A DNA stretch of 64,000 nt from Aeromicrobium sp. A1-2. Lineage in GTDB: Bacteria > Actinomycetota > Actinomycetes > Propionibacteriales > Nocardioidaceae. Location of the stretch: positions 1,984,001 to 2,048,000 of the forward strand of contig NZ_CP027482.1 of the NCBI RefSeq assembly GCF_003443875.1. The letters run 5' to 3'. The notes under the pieces were generated by a model. That model did no database searches and was not told the DNA's origin. It worked only from the letters and a program-made list of their open reading frames with translations. Each line of letters begins with the position of its first letter. Positions within the stretch are counted from its first letter, which is position 1. Below are positions 45,031-46,789 of this stretch, piece after piece. A program made the translations under genes and the position numbers.

Positions 45031-46665
45031 TCAGTCGTTGATCCGTGGCACCACCGCGTGCCGGCGCAGACCATAGGTCAACGCGTCCACGAGCGCCTCC
45101 CACGACGCCTCGATGATGTTGGCGCCGACACCCACCGTGACCCAGGCGTCCTTGCCGTCAGACGTCTCGATCAGGACCCTGGTGATGGCGTCCGTGCCGT
45201 GTCCCTGGTCGAGGATGCGCACCCGAAAGTCGATCAGGTGGAAGCGGGCGACATCGGGATAGACCTGCTCGATCGCCTGACGCAGCGCGTGGTCGAGGGC
45301 GTTGACCGGGCCATTACCCTCGCCGATCACCGCGAGCCGCACGCCACCGGCAGTCAGCTTGACGGTCGCCTCGGCCACAGCGTCGTCGCCGCGCGCCGAT
45401 TCGGCCAGGACTCGCCACGACTCGACGTCGAAGTACGACGGACGTACGCCATCGACCTCTTCGGCGAGGAGCAGCTCGAACGAGGCGTCGGCCGCCTCAA
45501 ACGTGTAGCCGGACTGCTCCATCGACTTGACCCGGTCGGTGACCCGGCTCAGCAGCACCGCGTCGTTGGCGAGGTCGAAGCCCAGCTCCTTGCCCTTGAG
45601 CTCGATCGTCGCGCGACCGGCCATCTCGGAGACCAGGAGCCGCATGTCGTTGCCGACCAGGGTCGGTTCGATGTGCTGGTAGAGGTTGGGATCGACCCGG
45701 ATCGCGCTGGCATGTAGACCCGCCTTGTGGGCAAACGCCGAGACACCCGTGTAGGGCTGGCGCGCCGACGGCGGATAGTTGGTGATCTCGGCGATCGCGT
45801 GCGAGATCCGGGACGCCTCGGCGAGGGCACCCTCGGGCAGCACCGTCATGCCGAGCTTGAGCTCGAGATTGGCCACGCACGTGACCAGGTCGGCGTTGCC
45901 CGTGCGCTCGCCATAGCCGTTGATGCACCCCTGGACGTGGGTCACTCCGGCCTGGACTGCGGCCATCGAGTTGGCGACGGCACATCCGGTGTCGTTGTGG
46001 GCATGGATGCCCAGTCGTACGCCGGTCTGCGCCACGTCGGTGACGATCTCGGAGACCCAGTGCGGGAGCATGCCCCCGTTGGTGTCGCACAGGATCACGA
46101 CCTCGGCGCCGGCCTCGCCCGCAGCACGGACGACCTCGAGCGCATAGTCGCGGTTGGCGCGGTAGCCGTCGAAGAAGTGCTCGAGGTCCACGAACACCCG
46201 CTGTCCCTCGTCCCGGAGGTACGTCACGGTGTCCCGCACCATCGCGAGGTTCTCCTCCAGCGTCGTGCGCAATGCCTCGGTGACGTGCCGGTCGTGACTC
46301 TTGGCCACGAGCGTCACGACGGAGGCGCCCGAGTCACGCAGCGCCTGGATCAGTGGGTCGGCGGCAGCAGCGACGCCGGCCCGCCGGGTCGCCCCGAACG
46401 CCGCGAGCGTCGCGTGCTTGAGGTCGAGCTCCTTGGCCGCCAGCGCGAAGAACTCGGTGTCCTTGGGGTTCGAGCCCGGCCAGCCGCCCTCGATGTAGCC
46501 GACGCCCAGATCGTCGAGGTGACGCGCAATGTGCATCTTGTCCTGCACGGAGAGGTTGAGTCCCTCCTGCTGCGCGCCGTCACGCATCGTGGTGTCGTAG
46601 ACGTGGAAGTCGCTCACGCTCTGGTGTCCTGCGTTCACTGCGGTGTCCTTCGTTCCGGTCGGCAT
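45031..46665 (-). CDS. cimA: Citramalate synthase
   Basis: Condenses pyruvate with acetyl-CoA to citramalate, the threonine-independent route to 2-oxobutyrate and isoleucine. HMGL-like catalytic domain with YDTTMRDGAQQEGLNLSV and GIHAHNDTGCAVANSMA, and a LeuA-type allosteric domain at the C-terminus. 544 residues. The ATG at 46665 follows directly after an attenuator; a GTG at about 46637 is an alternative. The leader peptide suggests control by isoleucine. Confidence 0.92.
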   Translation of the reverse strand: MPTGTKDTAVNAGHQSVSDFHVYDTTMRDGAQQEGLNLSVQDKMHIARHLDDLGVGYIEGGWPGSNPKDTEFFALAAKELDLKHATLAAFGATRRAGVAAAADPLIQALRDSGASVVTLVAKSHDRHVTEALRTTLEENLAMVRDTVTYLRDEGQRVFVDLEHFFDGYRANRDYALEVVRAAGEAGAEVVILCDTNGGMLPHWVSEIVTDVAQTGVRLGIHAHNDTGCAVANSMAAVQAGVTHVQGCINGYGERTGNADLVTCVANLELKLGMTVLPEGALAEASRISHAIAEITNYPPSARQPYTGVSAFAHKAGLHASAIRVDPNLYQHIEPTLVGNDMRLLVSEMAGRATIELKGKELGFDLANDAVLLSRVTDRVKSMEQSGYTFEAADASFELLLAEEVDGVRPSYFDVESWRVLAESARGDDAVAEATVKLTAGGVRLAVIGEGNGPVNALDHALRQAIEQVYPDVARFHLIDFRVRILDQGHGTDAITRVLIETSDGKDAWVTVGVGANIIEASWEALVDALTYGLRRHAVVPRIND

Positions 46666-46678
46666 CTCGGTCGGGCAA

Positions 46679-46722
46679 CAAAAAAGCCCCCCACGACATG
46701 GGAGGCAGCGCGTCGGGGGCTT
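46679..46722 (-). terminator. Attenuator terminator upstream of cimA
   Basis: On the minus strand AAGCCCCC pairs with GGGGGCTT (8 bp, plus GAC/GTC after a bulge) around a 14-base loop, followed by six U. It lies between the leader ORF and cimA. The leader GGGC at about 46734-46737 could pair with the GCCC of the 5' arm as antiterminator. Confidence 0.8.
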
Positions 46723-46726
46723 GAAA

Positions 46727-46771
46727 TCAGTGCCCGGCGCGCCTGTCGATAATGATCGAGATGCTCTGCAT
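46727..46771 (-). CDS. cimA leader peptide (isoleucine)
   Basis: Encodes MQSISIIIDRRAGH, with four Ile codons (ATC, ATC, ATT, ATC) in 14 residues, three of them consecutive. The stop is five bases before the terminator stem. A TAGACT -10 element seven bases upstream of the ATG predicts a leaderless transcript. This is the classic layout of transcription attenuation, here sensing charged tRNA-Ile. Confidence 0.8.
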   Translation of the reverse strand: MQSISIIIDRRAGH

Positions 46772-46777
46772 GAGGCC

Positions 46778-46789
46778 CAGTCTAGACTG
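46778..46789. promoter_or_regulatory. Palindromic bidirectional -10 region
   Basis: CAGTCTAGACTG is a perfect 12-base palindrome containing TAGACT in both directions. On the minus strand TAGACT is seven bases before the cimA leader ATG (46771). On the plus strand it is nine bases before the ATG at 46798. Both transcripts would be leaderless or nearly so. No strong -35 is visible on either side. Confidence 0.55.

Follow-up and report, generated by a model that had tools for sequence, protein, structure and literature searches.

In Aeromicrobium, the gene of citramalate synthase (cimA), the enzyme that opens one route to isoleucine, is preceded by a short element that is probably, with a probability of about 0.8 by our estimate, a ribosome-mediated transcription attenuator sensing charged tRNA-Ile, in which one hairpin may exclude the next by contact. 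The element lies on the minus strand of the 64-kb stretch of DNA analysed here as a whole (the window), and its parts are collected in Table 1. The leader ORF reads ATG CAG AGC ATC TCG ATC ATT ATC GAC AGG CGC GCC GGG CAC TGA, with four Ile codons and without Leu or Val, as the first-pass annotation of this DNA had stated. The same annotation named the gene downstream of the terminator cimA, and the profile match of the product to TIGR00977 (660.5 bits, cutoff 450) bears this out. Its "8-bp GC stem with six U" was right in that a terminator and T6 are present, but the stem it had drawn, AAGCCCCC/GGGGGCTT, is not conserved: the terminator can be drawn in that way or with the 9-bp stem GCCTCCCAT/GTGGGGGGC, and the relatives keep the second alone. 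Overlooked were hairpin P1, which begins inside the leader ORF five bases past the final Ile codon and adjoins the terminator hairpin P2, the -10-like TAGACT, and the absence of an SD-like motif before the leader ORF in the window. Upstream of cimA, the same strand carries genes for an aspartate ammonia-lyase-like protein, IlvE and a 3-isopropylmalate dehydrogenase-like protein.

Table 1. Parts of the putative cimA attenuator and the gene it precedes, in window coordinates.
Feature	Position	Strand	Basis or remark
-10-like hexamer TAGACT	46779..46784	-	sequence; 7 nt 5' of leader ATG
Leader ORF MQSISIIIDRRAGH and stop, 14 codons, ATG...TGA	46727..46771	-	conserved in relatives; predicted leaderless
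Further Ile codon of leader ORF	46762-46760	-	
Regulatory Ile codons ATC ATT ATC	46748..46756	-	Ile at codons -3 and -2 (counts in text)
Hairpin P1, ribosome-sensitive	46708..46742	-	arms 46742-46734 and 46716-46708; covariation above 500 shuffles
Hairpin P2, intrinsic terminator	46680..46706	-	hairpin 46706-46686, T6 46685-46680
cimA, citramalate synthase (putatively regulated gene)	45031..46638	-	GTG start 46638; TIGR00977

A terminator search of a 501-bp region returned three overlapping matches against 0.1 expected in shuffles. Single-sequence folding of the leader is unexceptional (z -0.96), and Ile-Ile-Ile occurs in only 2 of the 536 short ORFs (8-30 codons) of the window, the leader ORF included; the evidence for the leader is therefore comparative. 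The unexceptional folding and the second occurrence of the Ile triplet would both suit a plain terminator next to a chance short ORF, with no regulation at all, yet codons, spacing and hairpins are conserved across many genera, and such a coincidence is extremely improbable. When the organism's own genome was searched for more copies of the element, the window copy alone was credible.

The relatives of cimA were gathered by protein in two ways, from family genomes and as 80 loci from named genome records. A protein match at the search cutoff was found in 245 of the 246 family genomes, some of the matches being weak, so that not all of them are cimA. Nearly all cimA upstream regions gathered carry a short Ile-rich ORF and a terminator. 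The first-pass annotation had said that its proposal would fall if the Ile run or the terminator were not conserved in relatives; in the aligned upstream regions both are conserved. Of the 80 cimA loci gathered by protein alone, 79 have a match to a covariance model of the element built from 24 diverse cimA leaders. At the one remaining locus (L053), cimA is probably co-transcribed with ilvE, since the ilvE coding sequence lies directly upstream. In evenly drawn samples, the model has matches, before any gene, in 272 of 395 genomes and 108 of 137 genera of the class, and in 54 of 396 genomes of the phylum.

Both helices covary in the 84 cimA elements aligned. Paired cells amount to 95.9%, as compared to 88.0% in shuffles, and double changes, which involve 10 pairs, number 126 vs. 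25. None of the 500 shuffles was as high in pairing and covariation, and slid registers drop to 39-60% paired. Fitting of the alignment to the model favours pairing; an unfitted alignment of 24 sequences gave the same verdict. In two Aeromicrobium species (L026 and L031), leader and terminator are missing and TAGACT immediately precedes the start codon of cimA, which looks like a clean deletion of the putative attenuator. An actinobacterial cimA with an actinobacterial leader was also met on a contig labelled as a Spirochaetaceae MAG (L056), which is probably misbinned.

Ile occupies codon -3 in 77 of the 84 leaders, codon -2 in 77 and both in 70, the Ile frequency in the downstream reading frames being 2.7%. 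ATT and ATC interchange at the same leader position, and it is therefore the amino acid that is constrained. Codon counts among the model's cimA matches are slightly biased by its training on Ile leaders; the 80 loci gathered by protein are free of this bias, and the same training makes the finding of Leu and Val leaders with the model conservative. "Ile-only", as the leader was called at first, does not hold as a general trait, since codon -4 encodes Leu, Val or Met in many relatives (the Streptosporangiales leader MFYGLLIIGRRAG is an example of a non-Ile residue there).

The scaffold is not confined to cimA. The 120 elements from 62 genomes comprise 54 before cimA, 47 before ilvB, 15 before leuS (identified by protein motifs and a single profile match), one before leuA and three others. 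The window leader shares its codon register, P1 and terminator with the elements before ilvB and leuS. At codon -3, cimA leaders have Ile in 49 of 54 (pattern ...IIx) and ilvB leaders have Val in 41 of 47, with Leu, Val or Ile beside it (...LVL, VVL, LVV), while Leu is found in 13-14 of the 15 leuS leaders (...LLLT). The leuA leaders read NLLLT before the stop codon (L228) or, in a more distant genome, ALLLL (L140). Within one family, the scaffold also precedes ilvA, with IMIIS and MAIT before the stop codon (L283 and L288); its product, threonine ammonia-lyase, provides the other entry into isoleucine synthesis, and the ilvA leaders too have Ile codons. At another locus (L210), a leader MFTPRIII with both hairpins stands before an ORF of 112 aa that looks ACT-domain-like by eye and has no NCBIfam match.

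On the sequences compared, the codons follow the downstream gene within one RNA scaffold. This bears directly on the idea of a ligand-binding riboswitch or a T-box with an incidental ORF. A structured and conserved two-hairpin element is what such an RNA would require, but codon identity tracks the gene in a fixed register, which is strong evidence against a ligand riboswitch and in favour of sensing by the ribosome. Moreover, the start codon and in-frame stop are retained, and Rfam, searched at gathering and relaxed thresholds, gave nothing real in the window, including the locus itself, and only a tRNA in the relatives. A riboswitch or T-box is thus very improbable. Isoleucine-specific, ribosome-mediated attenuation of cimA, the central proposal of the first-pass annotation, appears well founded: Ile codons, terminator and spacing are conserved, and the codons change with the downstream gene.

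At the regulatory positions of cimA, ilvB and leuS leaders (L171-L290), rare synonymous codons are preferred. Of the Ile codons in the leaders, 51% are ATT, vs. 9.6% in the background, and the rare codons GTA and CTT recur in ilvB and leuS leaders. Slowly decoded codons may be favoured at these positions; a reason at the RNA level is also possible.

A [TC]ANNNT hexamer is separated from a leader start codon downstream of it by 6-8 nt in 68 of the 84 elements and by 6-12 nt in 77, as compared to 15 of 84 in an upstream control window, and no SD-like signal was found before the leader ORFs of the 84. The position of this -10-like box implies that the leader ORF is leaderless and that the transcript would begin at or beside the leader ATG. 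A transcription start 3' of the leader ORF, which would have spoken against the earlier proposal, is unlikely, the promoter-like box being at the leader ORF and not downstream. The S. lividans leaders ilvL, leuL2 and trpL are leaderless by RNA-seq (PMC8079986), and a paper cited in PMC10272879 states in its title that the C. glutamicum ilvBNC leader is translated without a ribosome binding site. A perfect palindrome, AGTCTAGACT (46779-46788), lies between the leader ATG and a divergent gene on the plus strand, which starts at ATG 46798 and whose product of 231 aa has no NCBIfam match; the palindrome is present in Aeromicrobium relatives too. Either strand offers TAGACT as a -10 box, which likely makes a symmetric bidirectional promoter.

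Codon -2 and P1 are 5-6 nt apart in 83 of the 84 elements, and the stop codon lies anywhere from -3 to +16 (once +52) relative to the start of P1. With the first spacing fixed and the stop variable, the constant feature is that P1 would be left free by a ribosome on the first Ile codons, while one at the stop would cover the 5' arm of P1. The gap between P1 and P2 is 0-1 nt in 77 of 83 relatives, though the length of the P1 loop ranges from 3 to 53 nt. Comparison thus establishes the codons, the spacing, both hairpins, their abutment and the match of codon to gene. The effect of the ribosome was computed under an assumed footprint reaching from 15 nt before to 12 nt after the first base of the A-site codon. 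The mean probability of P1 is 0.90 in the free RNA and is still 0.90 when the ribosome stands on codon -4; on codon -3 it is 0.66 and on the stop codon 0.01, so that P1 is lost only in the last state. The probability of P2 is about 0.9 in every ribosome state, P1 and P2 being compatible in thermodynamic folding. Of the original claim that a stalled ribosome favours readthrough, the Ile sensing stands, but the simple logic is incomplete as it was put, since both hairpins can form.

Can the two hairpins exclude each other by base pairing after all? In a classical trp-type attenuator, an extended P1 would overlap the terminator and make P1 and P2 truly exclusive. Pairing between AGGC (46744-46741) and GCCU of the terminator 5' arm is feasible in the window around one bulged U, an option common to Aeromicrobium relatives. 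However, the overlap is missing from most other families, where GCGC is the end of P1 and P2 follows after 0-1 nt, and the MFE structure of the window keeps both hairpins, which do not overlap. In swap and shuffle tests, neither arm of P2 showed conserved pairing with the P1 loop or with the codon region (helix score for P1 loop and terminator 11.56 observed vs. 11.50 swapped). The P2 arms served as positive control, and their signal was clear. An antiterminator that excludes the terminator by base pairing, as strict trp-type attenuation has it, was not found in the cimA leader, apart from the partial overlap possible in Aeromicrobium. The leader would work in a similar way all the same, and we regard exclusion by overlapping helices as rather unlikely. 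A GGUCUGC:GCAGACC pairing seen in Streptosporangiales was considered as a general feature and rejected, being absent in Actinomadura.

It is highly probable that charged tRNA-Ile controls termination in the direction stated, shortage leading to readthrough. We infer the start site, the regulation itself and the way in which P1 would block P2, as follows. Transcription would start at or beside the leader ATG, as the -10 box suggests. With enough Ile-tRNA, the ribosome would reach the stop codon and cover the 5' arm of P1, P1 could not form, the terminator P2 would fold, and RNA polymerase would halt before cimA. With Ile-tRNA in short supply, the ribosome would stall at the Ile codons, 5-6 nt before P1, and P1 would fold. 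Formed first, P1 would hinder the closing of the P2 base in the RNA exit channel, because it adjoins P2 with 0-1 nt between. Once polymerase had moved beyond the U-tract with P2 still hindered, cimA would be transcribed. In Aeromicrobium, the 4-bp overlap AGGC/GCCU could add classical exclusion. Blocking of P2 through abutment is the more delicate part, with odds that we place a little short of even, and the literature search found no precedent for antitermination by hairpin contact.

Leader translation might act through pausing instead, P1 being a pause hairpin that synchronises polymerase and ribosome, or the arrival of the ribosome altering RNA polymerase. P1 is transcribed before P2, the ribosome at the stop codon removes P1 in the folding model, and the compatibility of the two hairpins there agrees with such a scheme. 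Pausing alone, however, explains neither the abutment in 77 of 83 relatives nor how stalling would yield readthrough, and we consider it improbable.

Ribosome-mediated attenuation and the actinobacterial ilvB and leuS leaders are known already (PMC1262725, PMC8079986, PMC10272879). The Streptomyces ilvL leader MRTRILVLGKRVG of ilvBHC (PMC8079986; Craster 1999 as cited in PMC1262725) has the same scaffold as the cimA leader, is leaderless and has a terminator with a U-run, but its codons are mixed Ile/Leu/Val and its gene is ilvB, not cimA. One of our loci (L266, family f3) encodes exactly this peptide before ilvB and matches the cimA model. The Streptomyces leuS attenuators, such as leuL2 MRAVRLLLSEPR (PMC8079986; PMC1262725), have register and hairpins as in the cimA leader, e.g., MRTGLLLTEPR, but carry Leu codons and precede an aminoacyl-tRNA synthetase gene. 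The ilvB-II motif, including the C. glutamicum ilvBNC leader, responds to minimal and rich medium in a reporter, with no ribosome binding site described (PMC10272879). Like the cimA leader, it has its uORF in the first stem and its terminator as the second; in its antiterminator, the terminator 3' shoulder pairs with the P1 loop (PMC10272879), whereas an analogous pairing in the cimA leader is not supported. The E. coli trp-type attenuators share the codon run, the stalling logic and the terminator, but use overlapping 1:2, 2:3 and 3:4 pairings where the cimA leader has abutting, non-overlapping hairpins. In S. coelicolor ilvB, a relative of the cimA scaffold, substituting the putative regulatory codons was reportedly without effect on regulation (PMC1262725), which weighs against simple extrapolation to the cimA leader. 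A table of eight S. lividans attenuators is without a cimA leader (PMC8079986), and none is described in Rfam or the openly licensed papers searched, although absence there is not proof.

On these data, the citramalate route would be under isoleucine-specific control in most of the actinobacterial genera sampled. The ilvB and leuS leaders, so far described separately, join those of cimA, leuA and ilvA in one scaffold, the specificity of which would be set by two to four codons. A modular attenuator class across the actinobacteria, made up of a codon window, a ribosome-sensitive hairpin and a terminator adjoining it, sensing Ile, Leu or a mixture by codon swap and blocking termination by hairpin contact without overlapping pairs, is a tentative extension that we hold to be somewhat doubtful. 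Attenuation without overlapping antiterminator and terminator helices is a testable puzzle, which may bear on the ambiguous codon experiment in S. coelicolor ilvB. In general, actinobacterial producers of amino acids and antibiotics could be engineered via leaders of the cimA type.
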